From NCBI GenBank assembly GCA_018814305.1, contig JAHJAA010000083.1:1-48891 (forward strand): a stretch of 48,891 bases of DNA. The letters are read 5' to 3'. Source of the stretch: Pseudomonadota bacterium. Its GTDB lineage: Bacteria; Desulfobacterota; Desulfobulbia; Desulfobulbales; JAGXFP01. A model generated the notes under the pieces. It was given only the letters and a program-made list of their open reading frames with translations, was not told the DNA's origin and searched no databases. This document shows, piece after piece, positions 1 through 20,982 of this stretch. The first letter of the stretch is position 1, and each line of letters begins with the position of its first letter. Made by a program: the position numbers and the translations under genes.

Positions 1-66
1 GTTGCTAGAATTCCCATGGCTTTCTGGTTCAGGAGGTTGTTTGCCAGTCCGAATCCTGCCGTTTCT

Positions 67-330
67 CCATGAATGTCAATAAGTCAGGTCTGACCTTCAC
101 GCCTCGCAATTGAATTTTTTAAGAGCGTCCCACCCAGCCCAGGCTGCAGATAAAAGTTTCGGTCGCTTTGCCTTTTCGTTTCCCTTTCCGGGAGTTGCAG
201 CTGGTGCATTTTGCCATAATCAATTCATTCCTGAAAATATGCGGCTGTGTTCTTCATGGATGTCAATAAGTCAAACCAAGGTCCCACATCAGCCCGAATG
301 GTCCTTTTCAATTGAATTTCTTAGGAGCGT
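67..330. repeat. pair of imperfect direct repeats
   Basis: Two related blocks lie at 67-130 and 255-330. Each begins with a near-identical stretch around atgtcaataagtca (copy 1 at 71-86, copy 2 at 259-273) and ends with caattgaatttyttaagagcgt-like sequence (107-130 and 309-330); the middles differ. They flank a small decayed cysteine-rich reading frame on the minus strand. The arrangement marks the outer edge of the defence island downstream of the ABC-3C genes. The blocks are too divergent and too few to be a CRISPR array; they may be remnants of a mobile or repetitive element. Confidence 0.5.
119..217 (-). pseudogene. remnant of a small cysteine-rich (zinc-ribbon-like) protein
   Basis: An ATG at 217 opens a 32-codon frame ending at TAA 119-121. 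It starts MAKCTSCNSRKGKRKGKA and continues to an IC pair, giving CxxC, a KGKR basic run and a further cysteine. I recall small bacterial and archaeal proteins with a similar CxxC...KGKR...IC..C opening, but here the second CxxC knuckle is lost (the residues after IC are SLGW) and the frame stops almost at once. It is most simply a truncated leftover; similarity is from memory only. No clear ribosome site was weighed. Confidence 0.3.
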
Positions 331-367
331 TTCGCTCCCCTACATTTACTTGCTCCTCTTACGAGGC

Positions 368-2071
368 TCAGCTCCCGAACTGAACACCCAAGAGCTTATT
401 TGTCGGTTTATCTCCACGCAACACAAGCCGTATTGAAGATTCTAGCTGTTCCTGTTCATTTTCTGTCAAATGCCTGCACATTGCCGCGTAGTTCTCTGTA
501 TTGAGTGAGGCGATGTATTGCTTGCCCGTTCCCGGCAGCGCCGAGAACAGATAGCGAAACCATTTCGCCCTTGGCAGCGGATCTATATGTGCAAATAATC
601 GATTGTCATGCCAGAGGAAGCCCATTGAATGGTTGGCGCCATACATGGCTATTAGCCAGTCGAAAATAATTATTCGAGCTGCATTGATACCATCTGAGTC
701 TTCACCTTCTATGGTCACCGACAGGTCATAGCGAAGTTGGTTGTTCCCTGTGTTGTTTTCCATGACAATCCCGGCAGGGAGCCCCGGATACATCAGTTCG
801 GCAATCTCCTTAAAATGCTTATCCATTGGCTCAAGCGGATCCGTCCGCTCGTATTCTGAAGCTTTTCGGTCTTCTTCAATGCGTTTTTCTTTAATTTTTT
901 GGACTCTCTCCTGCAGCTTGCTGGAATATGACAAAAACTCTCGCAATCTCTCCAGCTCCTCCTGGAATACCGCATACTTCTGGGCCAGTGCGGCATATTC
1001 ATCCAAAGCGCGCTTTCCTTGAAGAGATTGTAATAGCTTATCGCGCTCATCGGCAATCGAGTTTCTCCGCCCCTCAAGCCCTTCGATTTCCCTTTGAAGT
1101 TCCAGCTTGTCCAGCTCCAGACGCTTTTTTCGATTTGCTGAAAGGCTGTTATGGAACTCTTCTACAGCATCAAAATGGGCAAGGGCATCTTCTGTGAAGA
1201 TTGAGGTTAACCCTTCATACAAACCGAGGAGGTCATCTTTGGAAATGTCCGGATGCTGAGTCAATGTCTTGCTTATTCCATTAATCTGAAAACGAATTAT
1301 TTCCTGTTTCTTTTCATTTTCACGCAGTCGCTGGGTAAGTTCTCCAGCGGACAGCTCAATTTGCCGGTAATCTTCAGCCACCTGAAAGGCATCAAGGTCA
1401 GCTTTAATACGCCCGAGTTCTCGCTCAAGCCATTCGGCACGAACCTTTGGCTTTGATCCTGCCCTGAACACCTCGTGCAGAATCTTGTCGTTTTTCCAGT
1501 TTTTCTCAGAGGTATTTATTGAGTCCAGGTCTAATTTGCTTTGTCTCTTGCTGAGAGCCAGTGAGGTGTCAACGCCCAGGAGAAAACTTGAACGGATTAA
1601 ACCGTCATAATCCTTTTCCGAAGATGTTATTATTGGTTCATTGCAGTCACTCTGTTTTAATCTGGCAAATCGTGGAAATAGAGATCGAAAGGTCAACCCC
1701 GGGATTTCTTTCTCAAGATTAAAGGGGCCTTTCGCATTGAGCCATCTTCGCAACTCGGTCACATTTGACTTTTTTCCATCCCGAAAAACTATTTTCCCAT
1801 TCCCGCTCCGTTCAATGACGTGTGTTTTGCCGCTGATTGAAAAATCCAACCGAAACATCCAATCAGGAACGGCAGCAGCTAATTTGGGGTTAGTTTGTGC
1901 CCCCAGACAAAGATGAATCAGTCCGAGGGAGAGAGTTTTGCCGACACCGTTGCTGCTTCCTTCACTGGAGTCATTTTTTGATCCATCACCCACGATCAGC
2001 GTAAGCCCTTCCGGATTGAAATGAAGAGTTTTGAAGGACGGTTGATCACAGGAAAGTTCAATCAGTTTCAT
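368..2071 (-). CDS. ABC-three-component (ABC-3C) system ATPase, DUF2326-like
   Basis: The product is a 567-residue SMC/RecN-like ABC ATPase. The start at 2071 is chosen because it has a GGAGG site 5-10 bases upstream and overlaps the end of the preceding gene by 14 bp; the frame stays open further upstream without support. An extended P-loop ending SSNGVGKT sits at residues 39-46, a long charged coiled-coil region spans roughly 200-415, and a C-terminal lobe contains a hydrophobic FLWHD segment typical of the Walker B/H-bearing half in DUF2326 proteins. ABC-3C systems pair such an ATPase with a small middle component and a protein bearing a C-terminal interaction domain, and are proposed prokaryotic conflict systems. 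The two genes just upstream fit these roles, so the function inferred is a sensor/motor for an antiphage or anti-plasmid effector. Confidence 0.75.
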   Translation of the reverse strand: MKLIELSCDQPSFKTLHFNPEGLTLIVGDGSKNDSSEGSSNGVGKTLSLGLIHLCLGAQTNPKLAAAVPDWMFRLDFSISGKTHVIERSGNGKIVFRDGKKSNVTELRRWLNAKGPFNLEKEIPGLTFRSLFPRFARLKQSDCNEPIITSSEKDYDGLIRSSFLLGVDTSLALSKRQSKLDLDSINTSEKNWKNDKILHEVFRAGSKPKVRAEWLERELGRIKADLDAFQVAEDYRQIELSAGELTQRLRENEKKQEIIRFQINGISKTLTQHPDISKDDLLGLYEGLTSIFTEDALAHFDAVEEFHNSLSANRKKRLELDKLELQREIEGLEGRRNSIADERDKLLQSLQGKRALDEYAALAQKYAVFQEELERLREFLSYSSKLQERVQKIKEKRIEEDRKASEYERTDPLEPMDKHFKEIAELMYPGLPAGIVMENNTGNNQLRYDLSVTIEGEDSDGINAARIIIFDWLIAMYGANHSMGFLWHDNRLFAHIDPLPRAKWFRYLFSALPGTGKQYIASLNTENYAAMCRHLTENEQEQLESSIRLVLRGDKPTNKLLGVQFGS

Positions 2072-2324
2072 CAGATACCCTCCTGACCCGCCCACTTGCT
2101 GCAGGTTCCACTTGACCAAGTGCAAACAAAACATCCAAGGCCAACACCACATGAGTAAAAGTCGGTTTTCCCGGCCAATCTGCGGGACGGCGGCTCACGT
2201 CAGACCAAAGCTCATCAACCGTCATCGGCTCAACAAGTCTGCTTCGCACCAGCCCGGCAAGAGCAATGATGGAGTCGCTGAATCGAACGTGCTTATGCGG
2301 TAAGAGTGCTGTCTGGATGCTCAT
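2058..2324 (-). CDS. ABC-3C middle component (MC6-like)
   Basis: A small basic protein of about 88 residues. ATG at 2324 is preferred over a TTG six codons upstream. It overlaps the 3' end of the upstream gene by 32 bp and the start of the ATPase gene by 14 bp, so translation of all three is probably coupled. The sequence has a helix-rich hydrophobic core (SIIALAGLVR, VVLALDVLFALGQV) with the WPGKPTFTHVVLALD pattern, which resembles the winged-helix-like middle components of ABC-3C systems that bridge the ATPase and the effector-bearing subunit. The family call rests on size, position between the two other components and remembered sequence pattern. Confidence 0.65.
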   Translation of the reverse strand: MSIQTALLPHKHVRFSDSIIALAGLVRSRLVEPMTVDELWSDVSRRPADWPGKPTFTHVVLALDVLFALGQVEPAASGRVRRVSDETD

Positions 2325-3243
2325 AGGCGTCACACGTTTCAAAGTACTTGGATAATATCACCTGAGCGGCCTCTCTATAGGCCTTCATGCTATGGGGGTG
2401 TTTCTTCATGGAATCAGGGATCAATTGGTCGACCATCCATACGTATCGAATATTCGGGGCATTATCTTCGGAATCGGGAATGACATTCTTTCCCTTCTTG
2501 TAAAGTGCGTTAATCTCCTTGGCAATTGATTGCGACAGGCCGACATCGCGACATAATAAAAAGTCATTAATGGTGGAGGCCTGATACAAAAAAATCTTTA
2601 AATACTCGCTCACCGGTTGAGTGAGTCCGTTAAAAATAATTTTCTCCGAAAAATCCGGGGCTTCCTCGTGCAAGAATGATGGGAAGATGTCGTTCTTGTC
2701 AGCAAGATGCGATAGCAGCTCACCAACGCTTCTTGGATCTACATGGGTTATTTCACAACTCGGAACACCGCCCACTATTACCTGCCGAATTTCTGAATCA
2801 AGCCCCATGAACATAGCCTCAAGGCCCGCTCCAGCAATGACTCTGGCATCGGTCAAACCATGCTTCTTTTTGAGTTGCTGTAACTCCGAAGCAACTGGAG
2901 CAGGCGCGCCGGTATAACGGTCGTTGTAAACAAAATAATAGTTTTTTACGTCTTCCCATTTTTCAGGAAGCTTTTCAAAATCAGTGACTGCCTTTTTTAC
3001 AACAGCTACCGGTGAAGCTGATGAGGTTGGTGTCGGTCCGTAAACTTGGTAGTAGCTGCCTTTAGACTCAATCCAGCCATCGTTTCCGCCATCTCCCCAA
3101 TCGCCCCAAGGCTGGATGGACTGGAATCCTTCAACACTGTACTGGAAGAGCTGGTTGATCAACTGCTGAAACGAGGTGCCGGATGCCTCGAACAACTTGA
3201 CCTTGAAGAGGGTTCTATACCAAAAATTATCGTTAGCACTCAT
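2293..3243 (-). CDS. ABC-3C C-terminal-domain protein with nuclease-like N-terminus
   Basis: A 316-residue protein, first of the three-gene ABC-3C set; its stop lies 32 bp inside the middle-component gene. The N-terminal 110 residues contain GDWGDGGNDGW (47-57) followed by YYQVYGP (64-70), an arrangement like restriction-endonuclease-fold domains in which an acidic residue precedes a strand with Q-x-Y/K; this is proposed as the effector. The rest, roughly 130-316, is mostly helical and would be the conserved C-terminal domain that docks to the middle component. ATG at 3243 has AGGAA 8-10 bases upstream. It starts 20 bp after the hsdS stop. Nuclease activity is inference; no full catalytic triad was proven. 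Confidence 0.6.
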   Translation of the reverse strand: MSANDNFWYRTLFKVKLFEASGTSFQQLINQLFQYSVEGFQSIQPWGDWGDGGNDGWIESKGSYYQVYGPTPTSSASPVAVVKKAVTDFEKLPEKWEDVKNYYFVYNDRYTGAPAPVASELQQLKKKHGLTDARVIAGAGLEAMFMGLDSEIRQVIVGGVPSCEITHVDPRSVGELLSHLADKNDIFPSFLHEEAPDFSEKIIFNGLTQPVSEYLKIFLYQASTINDFLLCRDVGLSQSIAKEINALYKKGKNVIPDSEDNAPNIRYVWMVDQLIPDSMKKHPHSMKAYREAAQVILSKYFETCDAYEHPDSTLTA

Positions 3244-3263
3244 TTTGATGATTCCTATTTCAA

Positions 3264-4478
3264 CTATAGCTGTCCCCGGAAAGCAGCATCAAGCAATGAA
3301 GCCTTGAGGTCATTGAGATCACTTAATTTCTCCTCGGTGGCTGTTTCAAGGGCGCTAGTACGTTCAGAGAGGGCGTCAAGTTGGGTTACGATTTGACCTT
3401 GTTCCTCAATAGGGGGGACTGGAAACTTATGCGACTGAAACTCTTTGTACTTCAAACTTTCAACTGTCACCCCCCCTTTGACGAGTTGGCTCAAAATGAA
3501 CGACTCATTCCCCTTCAGCATATATTGAAAATATTCCGGAGTTAGCGCCATAGTTGGGATAAAAACCTTGATATCCTGATTGACAGTAGCTTCAACGCGG
3601 TTAATACACACAGGGAGGGTATGCCTTAAAATGCCACTTCGCGCGACTATTAAAACTGAATTTCTAGGTATCATTTTGGCTGATGAGTTAGATACTCCCA
3701 AAGGTGTGATTTTCAATTCAGAGTCCGCTATTTCCCAAGCCTTCATATCCTTTGGAGTTATCCAAGGTATTTCTCCCTTCCAGTACTCCGACTTTCCTTT
3801 TGATGGCGTTCCACCACCTGTAAATTGGCCAATCTCATTAAGGGGTATGAGAGGCCACCCTCTTCCTTCACTTGATACAGCTTGCGCCAACGCACTCGCA
3901 AAAAGGGCCTTGGAGAGTTCAAGGGTTTCTTGGAGATGTGCAATGGCGGCGTCGATGCGGGTGAAGAGCGCGTCAAGTTTGGTGACGATTCGCTTTTGCT
4001 CATCGAGAGTGGGGATGGGGATTTTAATTTCGTTAATTTGTGCAGTGCTTAAATTAGGTTGAGCAGCACCAAGTGATTTCTGAAGGTTTTCTGTAACCTT
4101 TGCATTGAGGTAATAATATACATAGCTTCTGAGTACAGGATCAACGATAACAAATCGGCCAACACGCTGATTCTGCAATAATCGCTGACCAGATTCGTTA
4201 ATCGCAACCTTGCCTGTTGTTGCACCGGACATCGCAATGACAATGTCATTTTTCTCTACAAAAAAATTCGTGATCCTGTCATGTAAGAGATTTTCAGGGA
4301 CATAGGCCATCCTTTCAAATGAAATCCGCCCAGATTGTATGTTTGAAATACGAAGTACAGGAATACCAGACGGTCTAAAATCTTTACTTTTAAATGCATA
4401 GCCATTCTTAAAGTCAATGATAGAGCCGAGGCTTTCCCATTCCCATTTCTCCGGCAATTTATATAATTCCTGCTCCAT
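3264..4478 (-). CDS. type I restriction-modification specificity subunit HsdS
   Basis: This 404-residue subunit sets the DNA recognition site for both the methylase and the restriction complex. It shows the usual duplicated plan: target-recognition domain 1 (about 1-150), a conserved helical spacer beginning IPIPTLDEQKRIVTKLDALF, target-recognition domain 2 (about 205-345) and a second spacer beginning FPVPPIEEQGQIVTQLDAL. Each spacer is a coiled-coil arm that holds an HsdM. Length is normal and the two TRDs differ, so an asymmetric bipartite target is expected. It starts three bases after the hsdM stop, ahead of the ABC-3C genes, in the same operon. Confidence 0.93.
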   Translation of the reverse strand: MEQELYKLPEKWEWESLGSIIDFKNGYAFKSKDFRPSGIPVLRISNIQSGRISFERMAYVPENLLHDRITNFFVEKNDIVIAMSGATTGKVAINESGQRLLQNQRVGRFVIVDPVLRSYVYYYLNAKVTENLQKSLGAAQPNLSTAQINEIKIPIPTLDEQKRIVTKLDALFTRIDAAIAHLQETLELSKALFASALAQAVSSEGRGWPLIPLNEIGQFTGGGTPSKGKSEYWKGEIPWITPKDMKAWEIADSELKITPLGVSNSSAKMIPRNSVLIVARSGILRHTLPVCINRVEATVNQDIKVFIPTMALTPEYFQYMLKGNESFILSQLVKGGVTVESLKYKEFQSHKFPVPPIEEQGQIVTQLDALSERTSALETATEEKLSDLNDLKASLLDAAFRGQL

Positions 4479-4481
4479 ATC

Positions 4482-5954
4482 CTATCGTTCCCCCAGCAGC
4501 TCATCAATCTCACCCAGTAGATTGGTCACCGCCGTCTCCTTCTCCTGAATCAATTCCAGGATCTTTCGAGGAGGAAGATGTTCCACATCATTCTGCTTGG
4601 CCGGATTCTTGGCCGAGAGGTCATAGTCCTTTTTGAGCTTATCAATTGACACGGTCCATGAATGGTCGCTGGTGGTTCGCTTTGAGTACAACGCAACAAA
4701 TTCGGCAAGGTGGGTATCGTTCAGCGGCTTATTCTTGGTAAGTTTCTGCTCAGGTTCGCATTCATAAAACCAGGTCGCGGTTGTTCCACCGCTCCGCTCA
4801 AAAAAGAGAACATTGGTCTTCACACCTGAATAGGGCAGGAAAACCCCTGCAGGCAGGCTGAGGATGGTATGCAGATTAAAATGTTCCAATAACTCCTGTT
4901 TAATCTGGGTAAAGGCGCTATTCACCTGAAACAGAACCCCCTCAGGCACAACAATGGCAGCCTTGCCGCCGGTTTTGAGTGACTTCATGAAATGTTGCAG
5001 AAAGAGCAACTCAGTGGCGTTGCTCTGGATGGGAAAGTTCTGCTGGATCTGCGTCTTTTCCTTGCCGCCGAAGGGTGGATTGGCCAGGATAATGTCGTAA
5101 CGGTCTTTCTCCTGAATATCTCGGATGTTCTGAGTCAGGGTGTTGAGCCGGTAAAGATTGGGCGACTCAATCCCGTGCAGGATCATATTCATCATGCCCA
5201 TGACATAGGCAAGCGAGGTCTTCTCGTAGCCGAAAAAGGTATCGTCTTGAATTTTGTCCCATTGGGAGGTTGTCAGTTGCCTGCGCTTTTTCTTCAGATG
5301 TTCAAAGGCCTCAATAAGAAAGCCGCAGGAGCCGGCAGCGGCATCATAAATCGTCTGTCCCGGTTGGGGATCGATCACCTTGACAATGGCACGGATCAGC
5401 GGACGTGGGGTATAGAACTCACCTGCATAGCCGCCCGCATCGCCCATGTTCTGCAACAACCCTTCATAGACCTGGGAGAGTTCAAACAACTCGGTTTCCG
5501 ACTGAAAATTTAAGCCGTCAATAATATCGAGTACCTCGCGCAGGGTATGGCCGGAGGCTATTTTGTTGTCCAGATACTCAAAAATAGCGCCGATCTTGTA
5601 GCGAAAGGATTTGGGATCGGCCTTTGTGTCGCTGCGAAAAGATTTGAGATAAGGGAAGAGCGTCTCATTGACATACCGGTTTAAATCATCACCGGTGAGC
5701 GCCCTCTGAATATCCGCCTGCCCATTGGCCTTCTTGGGACAGGCCCAATTCGACCAGCGGTGCTTTTCGTCCAGCACCGGCGTGTAATCCTTGCCGGAGA
5801 GAATGGCCTCATCCGCTTTTTCAGCCTCATAATCATCAAGAAACTTAAGAAACAAAATCCAGGATGTCTGTTCCGTGTAGTGCATGGCGCCGGAGATACC
5901 ATCATCACGACGCAGAATATCGGTAATTCGATCTATTTTTTGTTGGAGTGACAT
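4482..5954 (-). CDS. type I restriction-modification N6-adenine methyltransferase HsdM
   Basis: A 490-residue DNA methylase that transfers a methyl group from S-adenosylmethionine to adenine in the site chosen by HsdS. An HsdM N-terminal helical domain (about 1-145) is followed by the methyltransferase domain with motif I DAAAGSCGFL and catalytic motif IV NPPF (in ILANPPFGG). Motif I has Ala and Cys where DPACGSGGFL is common, a modest deviation. Five bases separate it from the ATPase gene upstream and three from hsdS downstream. Length and motif order are those of an intact enzyme. Confidence 0.95.
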   Translation of the reverse strand: MSLQQKIDRITDILRRDDGISGAMHYTEQTSWILFLKFLDDYEAEKADEAILSGKDYTPVLDEKHRWSNWACPKKANGQADIQRALTGDDLNRYVNETLFPYLKSFRSDTKADPKSFRYKIGAIFEYLDNKIASGHTLREVLDIIDGLNFQSETELFELSQVYEGLLQNMGDAGGYAGEFYTPRPLIRAIVKVIDPQPGQTIYDAAAGSCGFLIEAFEHLKKKRRQLTTSQWDKIQDDTFFGYEKTSLAYVMGMMNMILHGIESPNLYRLNTLTQNIRDIQEKDRYDIILANPPFGGKEKTQIQQNFPIQSNATELLFLQHFMKSLKTGGKAAIVVPEGVLFQVNSAFTQIKQELLEHFNLHTILSLPAGVFLPYSGVKTNVLFFERSGGTTATWFYECEPEQKLTKNKPLNDTHLAEFVALYSKRTTSDHSWTVSIDKLKKDYDLSAKNPAKQNDVEHLPPRKILELIQEKETAVTNLLGEIDELLGER

Positions 5955-5959
5955 AGGCG

Positions 5960-7735
5960 TTATAATTTACTCACGATAAAGTTATACATATTTTTAATGT
6001 CTTCGCTGATCTCTGCGGGTGGAATCAGGTCGATATAGTTTTGCAGTTTTTGTCGGCAAAGGCCGTTATCATTATTTATCAGGGGATCGACGGTATCTTT
6101 GACTTCAAGGCGACGGATACCATCATTATCGCCCGGATTGTTTACTGCCAGATGATCGGCCTGCGCCAGGGTGGCACTGTTAATTTCTGCCAATTTCCCG
6201 TGGTGGCTTAACGCTGTGTGGGAAAGTAGGTAGTTTTTGATCTCACGTCGGCTCCAGGCAAGGAGGTGAACCTTAAGCTTCTTCCCTGTTACAATTGTTT
6301 TGATCCTATCAGAATATTCCTTCCCAAGAACCTTTACTTTTGTTGTTGGATCAATGTTAAGTGGTGCTTCGTCTCTATCGCAAATCAAGAAAACCTGGGT
6401 TGTTGCGAGAGCACAATCAACCTTGCTCAAATTTTCTGCCCACTGGAGTTTTGCCTTAGCAAAAGACTCCGTTGTTGACCCATAGCTGGATGTTTTCTTA
6501 AAGGCATATACAGAGTTAAGTTTCGAAATGTCCAAATCTTTGCGAGCTGCGAGCAGGAGAAAAATATCCCAATCGTTATAATCATCAAGTAATGCCATGT
6601 GGGGAATCTTGGCACATACTTCATATTCGACAGAGGTAGCTCGGGAAAGGATGCTGAGACGATCGATCAACTGCTTTAATTTGTCGTCATCACGGATACG
6701 GCCTTTTTCAACGACCTTGATGGCGTGGAAGTCATTTGCGGTAATGGAGTCGAGCAAATGGGTGGTGGTAATCGTCTGCCCCTTCAGACTATTAAGAATA
6801 CGCCACAGGCGATCAATATTCTGATAATGCAGATGTGAATCAGCCTCATCGAGCAGGAAGAGGGTTTTTTCATCATCGAAAAGATCAATTAACGCGTAGA
6901 GGAAGAGAAGCTGGTATTCGCCATCGCTGAGCTGATCCAGCTCAAGGCCACCTTTTAAAATAAGTTTCAGGTTGGTTCTATCGATGAAGTAATTATTGTC
7001 GGCGGCCTGGGTGAAAAAGCTGACGGTAGGATTATCCTCAATATTTTGGGCGGGAATTTCTCCTTCCTCATCTTCTTGACCAGGGCGTGAGGATGAATAT
7101 GAAGCAGCGAATAATGTATCGGAAGTCAATGCTACCGCTTTCTTAGTGAGTGGCCTGTCAAAATCGTAGTCTGGATCAATATTGGTAGCTATAAAGCTCA
7201 TCAAAGAACGGAAATAGGGTGTTGAGCGCAGAGTGTCCGTCTCCATTCCTGTTTCTTCTTTTTTAAGCGCCTCTTCAACTCTTTGGACATACTGTTTGGC
7301 TACCTTGAATTTGATATGAAGCGTGGTAGATATATCATCAAGTCGTCCATCAGATACCTCTTCTTCATCGACATAACCCCCATCCCGGAGAAACTGCCTT
7401 ACGCGGCCATCTGAATACAAACAGGTAGCAAGAAATATCAGCAGTTTCGACCAGGTTTTGTCATAATAAAAGCAATCAAGGTTAAGCGACCTTCCAGCCC
7501 TTCGTTCTCTATTGAGATAAGTGCTGAATCCTTGAGAAAAATTTTCATTCTGTCCTGAAGAGAAACAAACAAGACGCAGATCATCAAAGTCATTTTTTGA
7601 CAGTTTTGTGGCGAAAATCGCTTGGAGGATACAAGATTTCCCTGAACCGTTTTCGCCGATCAAGGTTGCGATCTTACCAAAACTCAAGGTTTGCTGATCG
7701 TTATAAAGTGGATTTGGGGCTATTGTAAGATTCAT
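5960..7735 (-). CDS. AAA/ABC-type ATPase with OLD-like TOPRIM/DUF4435 C-terminus, inserted in the hsd operon
   Basis: A 591-residue ATPase placed between hsdR and hsdM with gaps of only 3 and 5 bp. Walker A GENGSGKS is at residues 27-34; an ABC-like signature LSDGEYQLLFLYAL and Walker B FLLDEADSHLH follow near residues 270-300, the layout of OLD/RecF-type ATPases. The C-terminal third has ICDRDEAPLN and LLAWSRREIKNYLL, which match the acidic D-x-D and W-x-RREIENYLL features of TOPRIM-like/DUF4435 nuclease tails. Type I loci are often interrupted by accessory ATPases of this kind (RloA-like), proposed to add a second antiviral activity. Whether it acts with HsdRMS or on its own cannot be told from sequence. 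Confidence 0.75.
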   Translation of the reverse strand: MNLTIAPNPLYNDQQTLSFGKIATLIGENGSGKSCILQAIFATKLSKNDFDDLRLVCFSSGQNENFSQGFSTYLNRERRAGRSLNLDCFYYDKTWSKLLIFLATCLYSDGRVRQFLRDGGYVDEEEVSDGRLDDISTTLHIKFKVAKQYVQRVEEALKKEETGMETDTLRSTPYFRSLMSFIATNIDPDYDFDRPLTKKAVALTSDTLFAASYSSSRPGQEDEEGEIPAQNIEDNPTVSFFTQAADNNYFIDRTNLKLILKGGLELDQLSDGEYQLLFLYALIDLFDDEKTLFLLDEADSHLHYQNIDRLWRILNSLKGQTITTTHLLDSITANDFHAIKVVEKGRIRDDDKLKQLIDRLSILSRATSVEYEVCAKIPHMALLDDYNDWDIFLLLAARKDLDISKLNSVYAFKKTSSYGSTTESFAKAKLQWAENLSKVDCALATTQVFLICDRDEAPLNIDPTTKVKVLGKEYSDRIKTIVTGKKLKVHLLAWSRREIKNYLLSHTALSHHGKLAEINSATLAQADHLAVNNPGDNDGIRRLEVKDTVDPLINNDNGLCRQKLQNYIDLIPPAEISEDIKNMYNFIVSKL

Positions 7736-7738
7736 TTT

Positions 7739-10144
7739 CTATAAGCAATGGTAAAGTTCATGTTGTAAATGCCGAAAGGCAGCCAGTACATTTGCCGGAC
7801 TTCCGCCGAATGCCTGGGAGGCATCCCGCGTAGTCCCCAAGCCTGACATTTTTATCAAACCGGGCATTCGGTCTCGGGCAAGTTCAGAAACCCCAGTCTC
7901 CTCATACCGATTCAAGACAAAATAGAGGAAATCTCGGGCTGGTTTCTGGTCGAATTGTTCAAAAAAGGCGGTTTTGGCCCTAGTTGCCTCGGCCCGAGCC
8001 CGCCTTTTTTTCATGGGTTGCTCAAAGGCAAGGAAGGCAAGCAGATCAAACAAATCGCTTTCTTCTGCTGCAAACATACGCCGCAAGGTGGCAAGTTGTT
8101 CGCCGTCAAAGCCTGTCTGGGCAAGTTTGTTGAGTAACATTTCCCGTTGGTCGGGGTCTGACCAGGTTTCGCGGAGTTCTTCTGCCGAAGAAAACAATCC
8201 CGGCAGTTTAACCATCAGTCGCTCAACGAACTGCTGAGCTGAAAGTGGCCGTCCGTTTTCATCAATATAGCGAATCTCAACATCAACAACCTTAAACTCG
8301 CGGGTCTCGCTAAGCCTGACGGTGAGTTTTTCTGTTGGCTCTCGCTCTCTGGTCTCAAGGCCTCCATGACCGGTTGAAAAGCCGCTATCGTCTTCTGCAG
8401 GATGTCCGGCATAGTCCGTTGGTTGAGGTTCATCCGTGCCTAAGGTTGCTGTTGTTTCAACGCTCACAGGGTCGCCATCCCAATCTTCATCATAAAAGCG
8501 ATTTGTCGCACCACGAAAATCAACAATGGTAAAATATTCTTTACCATCGAAAACCCGCGTACCGCGTCCCACGATCTGTTTGAACTCAACCATGGAGCCG
8601 ATAGAACGATCCAGCACGATGTTCCTGACATTTCTTGCATCCACACCAGTGGTCAGCATCTGTGAAGAGGTGAGAATTGTTGGAATGTCTTTATCATTGT
8701 CCTGGAAACGCTCAAGCAAGTCCCTTCCCGGCTTGCCCTCATCACTTGTTACACGAACACAGTAGTAAGGATCAGCAACAGTTTTGTGTTTGTTAATCAT
8801 GTCCCGCATGGTCAAGGCATGGCCCTGGTTCGTGCAAAAGACAATGGTTTTTTCCAGGGGATTAATGTTTGCAAGAATAGCCTTGGCAACCAGTTCTGTT
8901 CGCTGATCCGCAACAATTTTATTGTCAAAGTCGTTGGTCTCATAAACATCCTGATTTGATTCACCTTTGAGGATCTCATCATCACTTGTCAGAACCAGTT
9001 CGTCGAGATTGGTGCGGATGCGCTTCACACGGTATGGGGTGAGAAAACCATCGTTAATGCCGTCTTTTAAAGAATATTCATACACTGGTTTGCCGAAATA
9101 ATTGTATGTATCGATATTGTCTGTTCGCTTTGGTGTTGCAGTGAGACCCAGGTGTACTGCTGGTTTAAAATGATCGAGAATCGCCCGCCATGATCCTTCA
9201 TTATTGGCCGCACCACGATGACATTCGTCGATTATGATTAAGTCGAAAAAATCTTCAGGATACTCCTTGTAATACCCACCGATGTTCTCCCGTTCAGCAA
9301 TTGCCTGATATATGGCAAAAAAGATATGGGCATTGGTTGGGACAACACCATTGCGGCGTCTGACTTCATCTCCGTCAATCTTTAATAGATCTCTCTCATA
9401 TGGATTAAAGGTATTGATCGCCTGGTCGGCTAAGATATTACGATCTGCGAGAAAAAGAATACGAGGGCGACGTGACCCAGGCTCTTGCCGGTTCCAGCGA
9501 GCTAGAAACAGTTTGTGAACGATCTGGAATGCGATAAAGGTCTTCCCTGTCCCGGTTGCCAGGGTTAATAAGACTCTCGGCTTTCCTGCCCCTATTGCAT
9601 CCGTTGCAGCGTGAATCGCAAGCTCTTGATAGTAGCGGGGACGCATTCCCGCATCGAGATGGAAGGGAATATTTCTTAGTTCCCTACCCAAGTCGGTTGT
9701 CATACCGACACGGCGTTTTAACAGACCCTCTGGAGTCGGATAATTATCGACAAAATCCCCTTTTCCAGTTTCAAGGTCAAACTCATAGATTTGCTCGCCA
9801 TTCGTGGAATAAACAAAACGAACAGCGAGTTTTGTGGCATATTCGATAGCTTGCTGGAGGCCTTGAGTGGGGTGTGTTGACCGTTTTTTAGCCTCAATAA
9901 TAGCAAGGTGCTGGTTTTCACTATGCAGTAAATAATCAACAAAACAACGTGTGCCGCGTTGCCCGGCAGCAAGTTTTCGGCCATCGGTGAAATAATATTC
10001 ACGAATGACCTGTCCGCTTTCCCAGCCAGCCATGGCTAGTGCTGGATCGATGAAGTTTGCGCGAGTATCGGCTTCGCTCTGGTTGGTGTTAACTGAAGTA
10101 GTCACTTTTTGATAATCTTTTAAAATCGATTTCCCCGGCTTCAT
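7739..10144 (-). CDS. type I restriction endonuclease subunit HsdR
   Basis: An 801-residue motor and nuclease subunit that translocates and cuts unmethylated DNA. The N-terminal PD-(D/E)xK-type nuclease is visible as VDYLL followed by IIEAKKRS near residues 65-90. SF2 helicase motifs follow: Walker A ATGTGKT (about 195), DECH box, [16 protein letters not shown] and QIVGRGTR. An EcoEI-R-type C-terminal domain ends the protein. All motifs are intact, so the enzyme should be active with HsdM and HsdS further down the operon. Its ATG overlaps the stop of the upstream Abi gene in an ATGA-type 4-bp overlap, indicating translational coupling. Confidence 0.95.
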
Positions 10145-11037
10145 AATTGCCCTCTCCAGATCGGTCGATCCCGCCAGTCATCTGGGAAACCCACATTGCC
10201 TTCGCGTACCTCGGGATGTTTGGCCAGTAGCGCTCCCAACCGTTTCTTCCAGCTATGTGGATTGATCCGGTCCAGCAGGTAGGCCAGCATAACCAGGGTG
10301 TTATAAATCTTTTTGCCATCCGTCACATTGAAATTTTCCACAAGACCCGCCGGCTTCACCCTCGGCAGTTTCCAGGCAAAGGTGAATTCCCGGTTCCAGA
10401 GCCGGGCGTGGTGGGCGCAGAGGTTGCGCACGATACTCAAGTGATGCAGGAAGGAGGTCAGATTAACTTCGTCAAACCCGTAAGTCCGCGCAATGGCGTT
10501 GCGGTCCCGGCTATGACATAGGTTGGCGTACCACTTGGAAAGCTGACCCAGAGTCATAATTTCGCAGACGGCCCACAAAGGAGGCAACTCTTCATCGTAG
10601 GTGTCGAAATGCCGGATAAAGACCTCGGCGCTGACGCGAACCACATCTTTCAGGTTCTGCACATTGTCCGGGTGCGACCAGCGGCCCCGTTTAAATATGC
10701 CGCTGTCAAGATGGGCGTGGGGGCCATATGAATGGGAAAGATGGTAGGCCCACCGGGTACGCAGGGAGACTTCAAGGCGCTCGATGGCATCCATAACCAG
10801 CAACCGCAATTCCCGGTCGAAGATATAATGTTCGAGAACGATATTGAAGCTGGTGCCCGGCCTGAAACGATGGGTTGGATGGTCTTGCTCGTAGGGTAAC
10901 CAGTAGGCGGCCAGGCGGTAATAGTTCAAGTGGGAGAGATAGCGCTCGGCACGTACTGGATCTTCAATCTCCATCCCGCGCGAGACGAGAAGTCCCACCT
11001 GCTCGGCAAAGGTCTTCGGGGGTTTGTTAAAACGCAT
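10141..11037 (-). CDS. Abi_2 (AbiD/AbiF-type) abortive infection protein, HEPN fold
   Basis: A 298-residue Abi_2 family protein, expected to be a HEPN RNase or RNase-like sensor that stops growth of phage-infected cells. The family signature near the N-terminus is present ([18 protein letters not shown], about 31-48). The catalytic HEPN Rx4-6H motif is seen as RNLCAH at 204-209, followed by HARLWNREF; a second R...H (RTRWAYH, about 93-99) lies upstream. It is the first gene of the eight-gene tight operon and overlaps hsdR by 4 bp. Linkage to restriction genes is common for Abi_2, but a single transcriptional and translational unit with HsdR suggests co-control. Upstream DNA holds only gene remnants, so the operon promoter probably lies within 11040-11510. 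Confidence 0.88.
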
Positions 11038-11177
11038 TCGTCACCCCCTGAAAAAAAGTAACCCCCCATGGTGCGCAGAGCTTACGAGATGCGTGGGGGG
11101 TGTTGTTCGAGTATTGGTGTGTGACTTGAAAATATAATAAATTCATTTGTCCATAAATGCAAGGAGTTATTGCAGTC

Positions 11178-11269
11178 GCGGCATATGCCTCTTTGGTGTT
11201 GTGCATTTCCCCGTCCGAACTATACTTTAACAACGGCAGGAAAAATGATTGAAAATCGGGTACGGCCAA
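11178..11269 (-). pseudogene. fragment of an Mrr-type restriction protein N-terminus
   Basis: On the minus strand the frame reads AVPDFQSFFLPLLKYSSDGE and then MHNTKEAYAA, which is the opening of the Mrr N-terminal winged-helix domain (usual pattern: PDFQ...LPLL...DG..H...EA). The only start is a TTG at 11269, similarity stops after about 33 residues, and the following codons look unrelated. No Mrr catalytic domain occurs nearby. It is a broken leftover of a modified-DNA restriction gene, showing earlier content at this island position. Confidence 0.5.
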
Positions 11270-11334
11270 TGTATTTCTCCATGTCTTGTCGGTGAGATCC
11301 GTTATTCAACGATACTCTCACATGTACTTTTCAA

Positions 11335-11505
11335 CTATCCTGATTCACCACCTGTCTGCCCTTTTCGGGCAGCCAATATTTCTGCTTGCTGCTTACTGTT
11401 TGTTGGCGTATCCGGGATGGTCATTTCAATAAATTTGGCATCCAGCAAAGGCCTGAGCACTTGGTCCCGACTTAGTCCCAACTTGGTTCCTACCGGCCAT
11501 TCAAT
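11335..11505 (-). pseudogene. fragment of a RecG-like/AlbA_2 protein C-terminal winged helix
   Basis: A 56-codon frame, closed by stop codons at both ends and lacking a start, reads TKLGLSRDQVLRPLLDAKFI, then EMTIPDTPTNSKQQ. The last part matches the C-terminal winged-helix end of AlbA_2/HATPase_c_4 proteins often annotated as RecG-like helicases (usual pattern: LIEMTIPDKP.S..Q.YRLT). The intact AlbA_2 protein in the window (12032-13771) has a different C-terminus, so this is a piece of another such gene. With the Mrr fragment beside it, it records gene loss at this junction. Confidence 0.5.
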
Positions 11506-11512
11506 TCATCAC

Positions 11513-11941
11513 TCATAATTCACCCGACACTGTTGGCTTTCTCTCCAAGCTCTCTTCATCCCACATTTCCCGATAAAACCGGACATATTCAGTAGCTGCA
11601 TGTGGGTCAATGAACCAATAGTGACGGCAAAGCGTTTTGAACAGGGTCAGTGCCGTTTCGTCGAAAGCAACCTCAAGCAGTTGATCCAGCACTCGTTCTA
11701 TGCGCTGGCTATCATTGATCTTCCTGCTGAAGATCTCTCGCACTTCCGGCTGACACACGGCAAGGGTCTGTGTAACGGCTTCATTTCTCAGGGCTTGAAC
11801 CTGCCCGGCCAGTTGAAGAATGTCGTCGGATTCATTTACCATCAGGCTTTCGGCCCCATTGGCTTTTCCTGCAGGCTTAATGCTTTTGTCCCTGGCTAAT
11901 CTTCCCAGCTCATTATTCCCATTGTTTTTCCCGAGTATCAT
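11513..11941 (-). CDS. hypothetical protein, small acidic defence-island gene
   Basis: A 142-residue protein of unknown function, soluble and helical, without signal peptide. The C-terminal part (LFKTLCRHYWFIDPHAATEY, then FYREMWDEE) is aromatic-rich and looks conserved; I recall similar small proteins beside restriction or mobile genes but cannot name a family. ATG at 11941 is taken as the start, with an internal ATG at residue 34 as alternative. It lies 90 bp downstream of the AlbA_2 gene on the same strand and could share its transcript. Confidence 0.6.
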   Translation of the reverse strand: MILGKNNGNNELGRLARDKSIKPAGKANGAESLMVNESDDILQLAGQVQALRNEAVTQTLAVCQPEVREIFSRKINDSQRIERVLDQLLEVAFDETALTLFKTLCRHYWFIDPHAATEYVRFYREMWDEESLERKPTVSGEL

Positions 11942-12031
11942 TGAAGTAATACTCAGGTAGCATAAGCATAACTTATTTGATTTACTCAGTTTTAGCTAAT
12001 GGCCTCCACTTTTTCTTTTGCTTTCTTTTGC

Positions 12032-13771
12032 TCATTTATTGCTTTTATTAGCATCTTTGCCAGAAACGACCCACTGGGGAATTTTTCTCGTGCCGATATT
12101 TCTGATACGCTTCATTTTTCCAGAAAGAGCGTAAAGCAGGTTGTGAATTTTCTTCTTTTTCTGCACCTCAGTGAGGACATCTGGAAGTTTATTCATAAGC
12201 AGTCTGTCGATATCCCGTCTTGAAACCGGCCCGTGTTCACGGATCAGTTCGACAAGTATGTCCCTGTAATATTGATTATCGAACCCTTTATATCGAATAT
12301 GCTCGGCTTTGCCTCCTGTTGCGGCGGCAATTTCCGAGGAGATAAAGATATTGGGATACCGGCCTTCCACCACTCTCAGCGCCTTGAGTCGTTTATGTTC
12401 ATCCCTGGAGATCATCATCTTCTTTTGGACCTTGTCGAGGAGGATGACGGTCCAGAGGTCGAAATCCGTTTTTTCCATCAGCATTTGGGTATATTTTTCA
12501 TCAATGATTTCTCCCCTGATTGTCACCTTGACCCTTCCTGGATCGCTCAAGTCATAATCCGGTAAAGGGAAAAACCGTTTCATCTGGATATGAAACATTT
12601 TTTTGATCCCGCCGCCCTGGGTATCAATCATGTTGAGATTAACCATGGCATCGGCCAGAAATGAGTTACGGTAGACTTCCGGTGGCGCGTCCTGCCGGAT
12701 CACCGTCTCGACGCTGCCGGGCATGAAACTGCCCACATTGGCCAATAACAGAGATGAGGGCGTCTCCACCAGAATAATTCTGCCGCCCAGACTGTAGTCC
12801 TGGTGGGCAATGCAATTATGGAGGACTTCCCGTATTACCCACCGGTCATATTGAGAAATTTCCAAGGGAAAAAGGGTACCGCTTGGCAAATGCCGATAGG
12901 TCAAATTACGGACTTTTGCATAGACGGAATCCACATTGAGGAGAAAAGGCGGTCCGAAATGCTCGTAATCTTTCTCCCGATTCTGTTGATCTTTGAGTAT
13001 CCAGGAGATTTTCGCCACTGCCGGTGATATCAACGATGCTGATTCCGGCCTGCCAAGCAATAGAATGGCGGCATTGGTCACCTGGCCTTGAATGGTAAGC
13101 CTGATCTTATTCAGAAAGGTCGTGTCATCCCAGCTATCGACTTCACCGGTTTTGCGGGGAAATTTGCTTTTGTACTCGATTCTTGCCCTTGCGATGGCTT
13201 CAAGGCTAAGATCACTCAGGTGGGCATCCTTGCATATCGCCGCGGACCAGTCCACTTTTTCAATGGTCTCGGAAAGAATGGCGCTTTGCCGTTCCGGGCG
13301 AAGTTCCGCTAGACTGTCTCCCACACGCTGCCATGCTTTATCATGGGCATAAACAGGAAGGCGGGGGCGATGTTTTGGTACCCTGAAGACCCACACCGTT
13401 TTACCGGAATCTATGGTCAGGTAGGGATCAACCCGGAAGCTTTCCGAGTCCAAATTGGTGCATTTGCCGAGAATCCGCTGCTTGATGTTTTCCGGGGTAT
13501 AATCGTGAAGACTTTCGATCCCGACAATGCTGAGTGTCTTGTCCTTCACGCCGACAACCAAACAACCGCCCTCCATGTTGGCCAGGGCGGAGATATAAGA
13601 AATAATGTCTTCTCCTTTTTTGCCCGAGACCGCGTGCTTGAGATTTTTGAATTCTTTCCATTCACAACCCTCGTTTTCCTCTGGACAGAGGCTTTTGAGA
13701 TATGTGAAAAGTTCCTTTTCCTTCATTGCAAAACCTTCGTTGTGAATCCATCTACCAGATTCATCCTTCAT
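12032..13771 (-). CDS. AlbA_2 (Schlafen-type) domain protein with HATPase-like domain, RecG-annotated family
   Basis: A 579-residue putative transcriptional regulator or DNA-associated ATP-binding protein. Residues about 20-160 form an AlbA_2 domain with the typical LANMEGGCLVVGV and the following WQRVGDSLAEL. A HATPase_c_4-like region follows, with REVLHNCIAHQDY (about 325-340) and VETPSSLLLANVGSFMPG. The C-terminal 200 residues look like winged-helix segments rich in basic residues. ATG at 13771 overlaps the HTH gene stop in an 11-bp overlap; an internal ATG at 13726 has an AAGG site and is an equally good start. Such proteins are often called RecG helicases, but no helicase motifs are present. 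Confidence 0.8.
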   Translation of the reverse strand: MKDESGRWIHNEGFAMKEKELFTYLKSLCPEENEGCEWKEFKNLKHAVSGKKGEDIISYISALANMEGGCLVVGVKDKTLSIVGIESLHDYTPENIKQRILGKCTNLDSESFRVDPYLTIDSGKTVWVFRVPKHRPRLPVYAHDKAWQRVGDSLAELRPERQSAILSETIEKVDWSAAICKDAHLSDLSLEAIARARIEYKSKFPRKTGEVDSWDDTTFLNKIRLTIQGQVTNAAILLLGRPESASLISPAVAKISWILKDQQNREKDYEHFGPPFLLNVDSVYAKVRNLTYRHLPSGTLFPLEISQYDRWVIREVLHNCIAHQDYSLGGRIILVETPSSLLLANVGSFMPGSVETVIRQDAPPEVYRNSFLADAMVNLNMIDTQGGGIKKMFHIQMKRFFPLPDYDLSDPGRVKVTIRGEIIDEKYTQMLMEKTDFDLWTVILLDKVQKKMMISRDEHKRLKALRVVEGRYPNIFISSEIAAATGGKAEHIRYKGFDNQYYRDILVELIREHGPVSRRDIDRLLMNKLPDVLTEVQKKKKIHNLLYALSGKMKRIRNIGTRKIPQWVVSGKDANKSNK

Positions 13772-13967
13772 CTTTCCTTTTGGTCGCCGAGGTACTTTCC
13801 GCCATCCACTGGTCGATGATATCCCGCCTGAACCGCCAGTGCTTGCCCACCTTCTGGCCGGGGACCTCTCCCTTCTGGGCCAGCTTATACAAGGAAGACT
13901 TGGAGATTTTCAGATAGACAGCCAGCTCTTCGATGGTGAGTATATTGTCCTGATTTACAGTCATCAT
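13761..13967 (-). CDS. excisionase-type helix-turn-helix DNA-binding protein
   Basis: A 68-residue protein with the standard excisionase/MerR-like HTH: LTIEELAVYLKISKSSLYKL, then GEVPGQKVGKHWRFRRDIID and W. This fold binds DNA in recombination directionality factors and small regulators. It overlaps the AlbA_2 gene by 11 bp, so the two are made together and may form a regulator pair controlling the island or a lost integrative element. Starts at 13967 or 13964 (adjacent ATGs). No integrase lies in the window. Confidence 0.85.
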   Translation of the reverse strand: MMTVNQDNILTIEELAVYLKISKSSLYKLAQKGEVPGQKVGKHWRFRRDIIDQWMAESTSATKRKDEG

Positions 13968-14080
13968 ACGATCCGCATTAGATTGATTGATAATATCCGT
14001 TTTTAGCAGTTAATAGCCGAATTGGTCAAGGAGTTTTATTGCCAGGATTCAGTGGGTTTGGTTTGAATTCCACTACGTGG

Positions 14081-14215
14081 TGAATTGGGGTCATGAATTG
14101 GGGTCACAAATTGGGGTCACAAATTGGGGTCAGGCTTGACTTCTTGATATTTGATTTAAATTTCGCGCAAATTGGGGTCAGGCTTGACTTCTTGATATTT
14201 GATTTAAATTTCGCG
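14081..14215. repeat. 13-bp tandem units feeding into a perfect 48-bp tandem duplication
   Basis: Four back-to-back 13-bp units of (tg/ca)aattggggtca occupy 14081-14132. The fourth is the start of a 48-bp unit (14120-14167) that is followed immediately by an identical copy (14168-14215), including ggcttgacttcttgatattt. The rest of 13968-14423 shows nothing else recognisable. Runs of attggggtca are something I associate with leader sequences of IS200/RAYT-type transposase genes in related bacteria, but no transposase is present here, so this is probably a scar marking the island boundary. Confidence 0.85.
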
Positions 14216-14423
14216 TGTTCCCCCTTCATTCCGTTTGAAACCAAATTCAGCCGCCATCTTTTATCCGTCTTTGTCAAAAACAGTGGATTACCATTTCTTA
14301 GACAGCATATAATGCAAATACGACCTGAATATTTTCTATGGCACGGTTATGGGTGGGGGCGGATTCAATTCCAAAAAGAACCGGATCACGGCGATGACAA
14401 AATGACTGGATTACGAACCAACT

Positions 14424-20729: not shown

Positions 20730-20982
20730 GGTATAGAAAGAAGATACTGCCGACCGTGTCAGGGAGGACCAGGGCAGCGTTCTCCGGAGGAGTTAGGAGC
20801 CGTAAAGAAATAAGATGGCCATATAGCGCCGGATTTTTCATTGTATTCAAGGTGCAAAAAGGAAAGCAACCTCCCCGGTTGTGTCCTGTTTTGCATTGAA
20901 GAAGACGATGAAAAAGACAAGTAAGATGACCATGTTATTTATTGAAGACTCCTTCGCACCTTCACAACAAGGAGGGTCAGCC

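Follow-up and report, generated by a model that had tools for sequence, protein, structure and literature searches.

Defence genes embedded in type I restriction–modification (R-M) operons are already known. EcoprrI/PrrC consists of an anticodon nuclease encoded inside a type IC R-M operon, where it is regarded as a backup against anti-restriction (PMC3874165, PMC12707154). TgvAB, a second defence system within the type I R-M cluster of Vibrio pathogenicity island 2 (VPI-2) of V. cholerae, is active without HsdR (PMC11411939). The RptR-RMS-DarTG2-M48 island of enteropathogenic Escherichia coli (EPEC) joins type I R-M to an embedded toxin–antitoxin cargo and to RptR, a TAGCTA-binding protein of 79 aa that represses type I R-M islands, and its authors regard the hsdS–hsdR interval as a potential recombination hotspot (PMC12255303). 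PrrC in EcoprrI and AriA in PARIS (PMC12409363) are precedents for the sensing of subverted restriction or of phage proteins. Here we analyze an eight-gene defence operon in a 48,891-nucleotide stretch from a Desulfobacterota bacterium; this stretch, the window, is the whole of one contig (C59; JAHJAA010000083.1) of a 4.15-Mb draft genome. Its operon encodes an EcoAI-like type I R-M system in which an ABC/SMC-like ATPase gene stands between hsdR and hsdM, and we refer to the gene order hsdR–ATPase–hsdM–hsdS as RAMS, a label of our own.

Like PrrC, the RAMS ATPase is encoded by an accessory gene within a type I R-M operon; compared by description, PrrC is an anticodon nuclease of a type IC system, whereas the ATPase belongs to an EcoAI-like system and is accompanied by allelic replacement and flanking cargo. 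TgvAB likewise is a defence system embedded in a type I R-M operon, but is a GmrSD-type pair. An RptR-sized HTH gene with TAGCTA sites recurs in two RAMS relatives, but tblastn found no such HTH gene in the window, and RAMS differs from the EPEC island in carrying its cargo after hsdS and in its R-A-M-S order. Each module of the window belongs to a known family. Our searches of open-licence PMC papers brought up no account of an hsdR–ATPase–hsdM–hsdS lineage whose ATPase alleles are exchanged and whose copies share a joint between hsdS and cargo.

The four-gene core is conserved

The RAMS core was present on one strand at 13 distinct loci, namely the window, L002–L007, L018, L019, L110, L111, L112, and L116, which are hosted by Gammaproteobacteria, four plasmids, two Tn7-like sites, and the window genome. 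Spacing was 1–3 bp between hsdR and the ATPase gene, 3–6 bp between the ATPase gene and hsdM, and 2–5 bp between hsdM and hsdS, which overlap by 4 bp in L019. Searches with the ATPase recovered relatives on genome contigs of Aliidiomarina (L002) and a gammaproteobacterial metagenome-assembled genome (L003) and on 4 of 72,556 plasmids (L004–L007, from Vibrio campbellii, Salinivibrio, Vibrio fluvialis, and Shewanella baltica); no relative was found in 50,697 phages or among viral contigs in three scans. Within taxa, the ATPase occurred in at least 1 of 395 genomes of the window's own phylum (the window genome itself), at least 5 of 394 in the order of G395 (Aliidiomarina; three being RAMS), at least 1 of 369 in the class of G396 (G396 itself), 5 of 157 in the family of G640 (four RAMS), and 2 of 152 in the family of G687 (both RAMS). 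These genome sets overlap, and the phylum, order, and class figures are lower bounds because three first-look candidates were scored per genome.

The presence of the ATPase at all 13 loci is partly by construction, because the loci were found through the ATPase. When HsdR was searched for without reference to the ATPase, 3 of 54 EcoAI-family matches fell in the RAMS lineage, at 71–72% identity to the window HsdR, and all three carry the ATPase; the other EcoAI-family matches, broken fragments aside, were 33–46% identical. HsdM matches were present in 3,310 plasmid records, of which four exceeded 90% identity; these were the four RAMS plasmids, and the remaining 3,306 were below 60%.

An earlier note, made from the window alone, had taken all eight genes as one system and proposed a check of their co-occurrence and order in other genomes. 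No relative keeps that set: tblastn with the window Abi_2, CTD10, MC6, and DUF2326 proteins gave no match at 1e-3 in the sequence fetched around each of the 12 other cores, and we therefore rejected a conserved eight-gene system. The four-gene core, by contrast, keeps its order and strand in all 12, which is more than a chance arrangement. The sole window neighbor with a tblastn match was an AlbA_2 gene; its counterpart, at 45% identity, is the third of the 3′ cargo genes in L002. The operon resembles a constant restriction chassis fitted with exchangeable anti-phage modules.

Exchange of the ATPase body and of flanking cargo in relatives

We compared pairwise DNA identities at 12 loci, with L116 treated separately. 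In the ten loci other than the window and L003, hsdR was 75–95% and hsdM 77–91% identical at the nucleotide (nt) level, whereas the ATPase genes were 51–60% identical between three groups: group I (L002 and L007; 95% within the group), group II (L004, L005, L006, L018, L019, and L110; 71–95%), and group III (L111 and L112; 85%). The L116 ATPase belongs to group II, with 79–94% identity to the four members compared, and the ATPases of the window and L003 form a fourth branch, 67% identical to each other. For L007 and L005, identities were 91% in hsdR, 89% in hsdM, and 54% in the ATPase gene; for L110 and L112, these values were 92, 89, and 58%. Sliding comparisons of these two pairs and of L002 with L004 gave 79–100% identity in hsdR (mostly near 90%), 25–63% inside the ATPase gene, and 84–98% over the last 120–220 bp before hsdM. 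Over the last ~50 nt of the ATPase gene and the start of hsdM, the sequences of groups I–III are almost the same letter for letter.

Codon usage at conserved residues followed the same course. Between L007 and L005, the codons for identical residues were themselves identical at 565 of 727 positions in hsdR, 331 of 458 in hsdM, 69 of 193 in the middle of the ATPase gene, and 30 of 35 in its last 45 codons. Seven other pairs showed the same drop in the ATPase middle, with partial recovery at the end in L002/L018 (17/28) and L007/L018 (19/26). Because the hsdR of L110 is split into two open reading frames (ORFs), this locus is absent from the HsdR tree and its identical-codon count is meaningless. 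In phylogenetic comparisons, the HsdM tree joined L110 with L112 (100/100) and rejected L111 with L112 (approximately unbiased (AU) test, p 2.9e-19), whereas the ATPase tree joined L111 with L112 (100/100) and rejected L110 with L112 (p 2.2e-7), L002 with L004 (p 3e-25), and L007 with L005 (p 1.2e-6); the HsdR tree rejected L111 with L112 weakly (p 0.032). These p-values are indicative, because the clades were picked after the identities had been seen. These sequence comparisons show that the body of the ATPase has been replaced between alleles in the relatives.

The second exchanged part follows hsdS, a gene whose recognition part varies among relatives and whose 3′ end is conserved. Cargo begins on the same strand 9 bp after hsdS in 11 loci, 33 bp after it in L003, and 20 bp after it in the window. 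Among L002, L004–L007, L018, and L019, 38–44 of the last 45 nt of hsdS were identical, compared with only 17–44 of the preceding 60 nt. A 27-nt joint, comprising the last 15 nt of hsdS and 12 nt through the cargo ATG, matched the commonest 27-mer at 26–27 positions in 10 of the 13 loci and at 21 in L006. The first cargo genes are of four kinds among the 11 joint-sharing loci and of six kinds among all 13. SIR2 is followed by HerA and AlbA_2 in L002 and by a truncated HerA in L007, and a SIR2 remnant is left on plasmid L004. A 672-aa protein fills the slot in L005, L019, and L111 (open at the contig end in L111), precedes RhuM in L018, and follows Shedu in L006, L110, and L112; it had no Pfam or PADLOC match, and from its motif it may be a GHKL-like ATP-binding protein. 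L003 carries a PDC-M59A-like gene, a HipA_2 kinase, and DUF3037, the window an ABC-3C system of the MC6/DUF2326 kind, and L116 a 375-aa protein without Pfam match, MC3, and DUF3732, then DUF3800; the L116 cargo is ABC-3C by its MC3.

L116 and L004 are 94, 94, 89, and 78% identical in R, A, M, and S, yet one carries ABC-3C and the other the SIR2 remnant. The MC3/DUF3732 system of L116 stands at an identical joint, and the pairing of ABC-3C with RAMS therefore recurs in kind, since a different ABC-3C occupies the same slot. The ATPase body and the 3′ cargo, the two exchanged parts, are each flanked by near-identical joints. The SIR2 remnant of L004 and a PIN remnant at its other end are a trace of cargo turnover. 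Allele replacement, joints, and cargo turnover are all findings on the relatives and not on the window copy. A tie between ATPase allele and cargo, which had seemed to hold for allele I with SIR2, was broken by L110/L112 and by L004 and was rejected.

At the other end of the core, an adjacent same-strand 5′ gene or remnant was present in 8 of the 13 loci: Abi_2 in the window, an XRE/ImmA-like gene with PIN in L005 and L006, the 50-aa PIN remnant in L004 (at the same 15-bp distance from hsdR), a 71-aa HTH_26 gene in L007 and L116, and, in L110 and L112, a gene for a 79-aa HTH_73 protein whose start is preceded by TAGCTA palindromes at distances of 39 and 30 bp. In L116, XRE and PIN relatives lie downstream of the cargo instead. 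By its length, TAGCTA sites, and place beside hsdR, the 79-aa gene may be an RptR-like regulator; tblastn with the L110 protein detected it in L110 and L112 and in no other of the 13 loci, the window included. Both loci adjoin a glmS-like gene (SIS and GATase domains in L110, an 89% identical protein in L112), a TnsA-like gene, and a TnsB-like one, and because of these neighbors their RAMS copies probably ride on Tn7-like elements.

As a control for the cargo slot, we used the 54 EcoAI-family HsdR matches, which came from 51 of 394 genomes; three were RAMS, and the other 51 loci were fetched. Automatic analysis was possible for 35 of the 51, the other 16 having no HsdM downstream (9), no HsdR ORF (2), no hsdS (4), or a cut contig (1); hsdS was called by length and place alone in L055, L056, and L080. 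In 24 of the 35 operons, a same-strand gene of at least 150 aa begins between −110 and +60 bp relative to where hsdS ends. The post-hsdS cargo slot is therefore general for EcoAI-type operons, and we rejected it as a RAMS speciality. Pfam models, run on 20 of these 24 genes, identified AAA_15/21 ATPases (L053, L072, L080, L084), GmrSD_N (L057), Abi_2 (L067), a reverse transcriptase (L068), SIR2_2 (L081), SEC-C (L062), DUF3800 (L065), an integrase (L091), and, below cut-off, AAA_11 (L075); 7 of the 20 had no Pfam match, and the tight gene of L056, which follows a mis-called hsdS, is a housekeeping one. In L067, an EcoAI-type operon that lacks the ATPase, the Abi_2 gene overlaps the hsdS end by 1 bp, which makes a second pairing of Abi_2 with type I R-M. 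No RAMS-type ATPase was found between hsdR and hsdM in the 40 control loci with HsdM downstream (blastp E 1e-5); L072 has its AAA ATPase, at 30% identity, after hsdS. As far as these comparisons go, the ATPase between hsdR and hsdM and its alleles are what is special to RAMS.

The operon in the window and its surroundings

Eight minus-strand ORFs make up the operon, which ends 367 bp from the contig end (Table 1). As the earlier note had it, they lie on one strand with short overlaps and gaps, and all are intact, with no internal stop in any of the eight. Abi_2 overlaps hsdR by 4 bp, the ABC-3C effector gene overlaps MC6 by 32 bp, and MC6 overlaps DUF2326 by 14 bp; gaps of 3, 5, 3, and 20 bp separate hsdR from the ATPase gene, the ATPase gene from hsdM, hsdM from hsdS, and hsdS from the effector gene. 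Internal ATG starts were used for MC6 (within a longer ORF, 2058–2342) and DUF2326 (within 368–2152). Family searches with Pfam, NCBIfam, and PADLOC confirmed the defence affinity claimed for each module. An EcoAI-family HsdR, an HsdM, and a two-domain HsdS together make a type I R-M system, and the HsdR/HsdM/HsdS complex is predicted from family membership to restrict DNA in the window host. The Abi_2 protein has both the Abi_2 domain and the Rx4H motif, which we take to be a HEPN signature. That the eight genes form one transcription unit, a further claim of the note, is plausible given the gene overlaps and the RptR-sized HTH gene with two TAGCTA sites before the core in L110 and L112.

Table 1. 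Coordinates of features in the window and, where indicated, in other loci.
Feature	Locus	Position	Strand	Evidence
Abi_2/AbiD-like HEPN protein, 5′ cargo, 298 aa	Window	10141–11037	−	PF07751 185 bits; PADLOC AbiD 243 bits; RNLCAH (Rx4H) at residue 204
hsdR, EcoAI/FtnUII-type restriction subunit, core, 801 aa	Window	7739–10144	−	NF046051 870 bits (cut-off 550); GTGKT, DECH, EAK motifs
ABC/SMC-like AAA ATPase, core position, body exchangeable in relatives, 591 aa	Window	5960–7735	−	AAA_21/AAA_15; Walker A GENGSGKS, SDGE, Walker B
hsdM, N6-adenine methyltransferase, core, 490 aa	Window	4482–5954	−	PF02384 (N6_Mtase) 219 bits; HsdM_N; NPPF
hsdS, specificity subunit, 404 aa	Window	3264–4478	−	PF01420 (Methylase_S), two stretches
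ABC-3C effector, REase-like N-terminus and CTD10, first 3′ cargo gene, 316 aa	Window	2293–3243	−	PF20275 40 bits (cut-off 28.1); Mrr_cat below cut-off
ABC-3C middle component MC6	Window	2058–2324	−	PF20293 52 bits (cut-off 27.2)
ABC-3C SMC-like ATPase, DUF2326 C-terminus	Window	368–2071	−	PF10088 91 bits (cut-off 28.7); PADLOC PDC-M68B 240 bits
AlbA_2 (Schlafen-like) and HATPase_c_4 protein, upstream island neighbor	Window	12032–13771	−	PF04326, PF13749
HTH_17 small DNA-binding protein, candidate regulator	Window	13761–13967	−	PF12728 59 bits; 11-bp overlap with AlbA_2 gene
PIN remnant, 50 aa, 5′ slot	L004	~11516–11668		
SIR2 remnant, 43 aa, 3′ slot	L004	18425–18556		
ABC-3C effector with REase-like N-terminus	L010	13798–14763		D-x-G-N-D-G
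ATPase relative and N6-methyltransferase gene	L008, L009	14335–17966		

The 3′ cargo consists of a CTD effector, a middle component, and an SMC-like ATPase in one operon, identified by three Pfam models and matching the reviewed composition of ABC-3C systems (PMC10586767). Matches of the effector to the PADLOC LmuA (22 bits, E 3.8e-5) and PDC-M68A (17 bits) models were weak, and a match to LmuB scored 20 bits (E 7.1e-5); the LmuA and LmuB matches cover short stretches, and their scores are low. The DUF2326 ATPase matched PDC-M68B over its length. In the REase-like N-terminus of the effector, in the window and in L010, D-x-G-N-D-G is followed by QVY (QVF in Cupriavidus), as against the PD-QxK of E. 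coli Mrr (PMC12707154) and the QxK of Mrr-type sites. A Cupriavidus member of the same ABC-3C family had no R-M gene annotated within 15 kb, in a PLSDB annotation that is incomplete, and a member on a Vibrio plasmid stands beside an AAA ATPase/UvrD helicase pair; ABC-3C of the window family thus also occurs without R-M.

GC content is ~47% over the first 14 kb and ~54% across the rest of the window. GC at third codon positions (GC3) is 0.67 in Abi_2, 0.45 in hsdR, 0.44 in the ATPase gene, 0.61 in hsdM, and 0.42 in hsdS. The HTH_17 and AlbA_2 genes share the strand and the low-GC stretch of the operon and lie outside its interval, 368–11037. AlbA_2 appears to be a recurrent partner of type I R-M operons, found in the window, L002, L056, and L090. 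Between AlbA_2 and Abi_2, a 142-aa ORF (11513–11941, −) matched no Pfam, NCBIfam, or PADLOC model. At the upstream edge of the low-GC stretch, a stem-loop unit occurs twice in identical form, 48 bp apart (14126–14191, +), and possibly marks an element end. Farther away, a 672-aa ORF (20881–22899, +) looks flagellin-like at both ends by eye, with degenerate GSTLAAGS-type repeats filling its long middle. The window yielded no tRNA and no match to an Rfam family at its gathering score.

The ATPase and competing explanations

The best PADLOC models for the window ATPase were mad3 (67 bits), AriA (57 bits), and AbiLi (53 bits). In the window, scores fell below the curated MADS cut-offs (MADS2, 91 bits of 720; MADS5, 45 of 400) and below the 300 bits required by TIGR04435, restriction system-associated AAA ATPase (39 bits), and a PDB sequence search returned only generic ABC/SMC-type ATPases. 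The domain thus resembles the AriA and mad3 models; no AriB/DUF4435 half was detected, and we do not file the locus as PARIS. The ATPase had been called OLD/RloA-like: the ABC-type ATPase half of that assignment is upheld by the mad3, AriA, and AbiLi models, whereas the TOPRIM half found no support from Pfam or hhalign, and the resemblance to RloA itself is our assumption. Acidic residues D384, D388, D453, D455, and E498 are invariant in 12 aligned ATPases and looked TOPRIM-like; hhalign comparison, with shuffles, of the C-terminus to three DUF4435 proteins gave at most 2.1% probability on thin alignments. On these sequence comparisons, a TOPRIM/DUF4435 (nuclease) half is possible and unproven. 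Between allele groups, the ATPases are most alike at residues 271–300 (signature/Walker B, 67–83%) and in the last 21 residues (95%), and least alike at 121–150, 181–240, and 391–450.

Outside RAMS, ATPase relatives directly precede an N6-methyltransferase gene in three settings. In two E. coli strains (L008 and L009), the relative overlaps this gene beside nanCMS/fim and is convergent with a separate type I R-M operon; in L020, it precedes a methyltransferase–specificity fusion, and in L021 the same fusion follows an ATPase gene cut by the contig end. Partial DNA matches to the ATPase query occurred in 99 of 5,426 E. coli genomes (15–20% of the query among the matches listed). The position of the ATPase beside a methyltransferase within and outside RAMS therefore points to work with the methyltransferase.

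We think it fairly probable that the window operon is a horizontally acquired RAMS member with an EcoAI-like R-M system, in which HsdR and HsdM are fixed, the hsdS recognition parts, the ATPase body, and the 5′ and 3′ cargo are exchangeable, and the ATPase is a sensor with backup effectors. Homologous recombination at the short near-identical joints at gene ends would be the most likely route by which parts are swapped. As expected from its family, HsdR2M2S would restrict unmodified DNA as the first line. The ATPase would work with the methyltransferase, docked through its conserved tail, and its variable body may, in the manner of PrrC or AriA, detect triggers such as phage-encoded inhibitors; these precedents make a sensor reasonable, by analogy, and do not prove it. 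Abi_2 and ABC-3C, from their families, would serve as abortive backup effectors. Overlaps and the RptR-like gene of two relatives suggest that cargo shares expression with the operon, and the eight genes may be co-transcribed in the window genome. A bolder extension, which we hold to be rather unlikely, makes the ATPase a polymorphic phage-sensing locus, whose fixed tail docks on the methyltransferase and whose diverged bodies are swapped under frequency-dependent selection like the target-recognition domains of hsdS; the joints would turn the whole operon, on plasmids and Tn7-like elements, into a platform where recombination reloads SIR2, Shedu, ABC-3C, or HipA-like abortive effectors after hsdS.

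Several observations weigh against the main explanation. The 13-locus finding was steered by the ATPase search, and neither the HsdM (p 0.395) nor the HsdR (p 0.146) tree rejects L002 with L007, so that group I shows no tree conflict, and replacement there is supported by identity levels and codon counts. The joint is not shared by L003 (11/27) or the window (8/27), so that recent exchange is shown for the remaining 11 loci alone. The case for the 5′ slot is less strong than that for the 3′ one, with only 8 of 13 loci occupied, mostly by small regulators or XRE/PIN. The ATPase allele is not coupled to the cargo: Shedu and the 672-aa protein occur with allele II in L110 and with allele III in L112, which speaks against control of the cargo by the ATPase. 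Tight genes of other kinds occupy the hsdR–hsdM interval in L056 (a GmrSD_N and AlbA_2 protein) and L090 (an AlbA_2 protein), with a looser case in L058, and the interval is therefore not closed to cargo. Promoter-like sites in 1–14500 numbered 27, compared with 19.2 ± 4.5 in shuffles. No Pfam DUF4435/TOPRIM model matched the C-terminal parts of nine ATPases at E up to 10, on thin alignments, and an AlphaFold model built from three sequences had a mean predicted local distance difference test (pLDDT) score of 38 and was not used for fold search.

Some of these points would also fit an ordinary defence island, in which independent systems adjoin by chance, overlaps reflect compaction, and the ATPase is another hitchhiker. 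The uncoupling of allele from cargo, the filled post-hsdS slot of 24 of 35 other EcoAI-type operons, the hsdR–hsdM cargo of L056 and L090, the spread of GC3 among operon genes (0.42–0.67), and the occurrence of window-family ABC-3C without R-M all favor such an island. Still, in each of the seven lineage loci that HsdR or HsdM searches recovered independently of the ATPase, the ATPase gene stands between hsdR and hsdM, compared with 0 of 40 other EcoAI-family HsdR loci with HsdM downstream, and joints and gene spacing are preserved; chance assembly is thus possible and, in our estimate, improbable. Evolution of the ATPase alleles at a faster rate alone, without replacement, would account for the long ATPase branches (1.8 changes per column for groups I and III), but the fraction of identical codons is low in the body and as high as in hsdR and hsdM in the last 45 codons, and the trees conflict among L110, L111, and L112, so we give this alternative very little credence.

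A further reading concerns function, with the ATPase acting as a modulator of restriction or methylation of the MADS Mad3 type and its variability reflecting co-adaptation or escape from phage inhibitors. That mad3 is the best PADLOC model, that a methyltransferase gene adjoins the ATPase in every locus read, and that the near-identical last 21 residues are consistent with docking on a conserved partner would all suit a modulator. Against it, hsdS type and ATPase allele travel separately, related hsdS genes (72–85% nt identity) being common to L007 (allele I), L110 (II), and L111 and L112 (III), and related EcoAI-type operons exist without such a subunit. We consider a modulator possible but rather improbable.

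The RAMS loci bear on the open question of why defence systems cluster and whether clustered systems cooperate. They are natural operons that are alike in hsdR and hsdM and differ in ATPase allele or cargo, which makes the contributions of individual modules, and the dependence of cargo on the restriction chassis, directly testable. If the explanation favored here is true, restriction operons would contain a new kind of recognition element worth searching for, an accessory subunit that undergoes exchange as the specificity subunit does.

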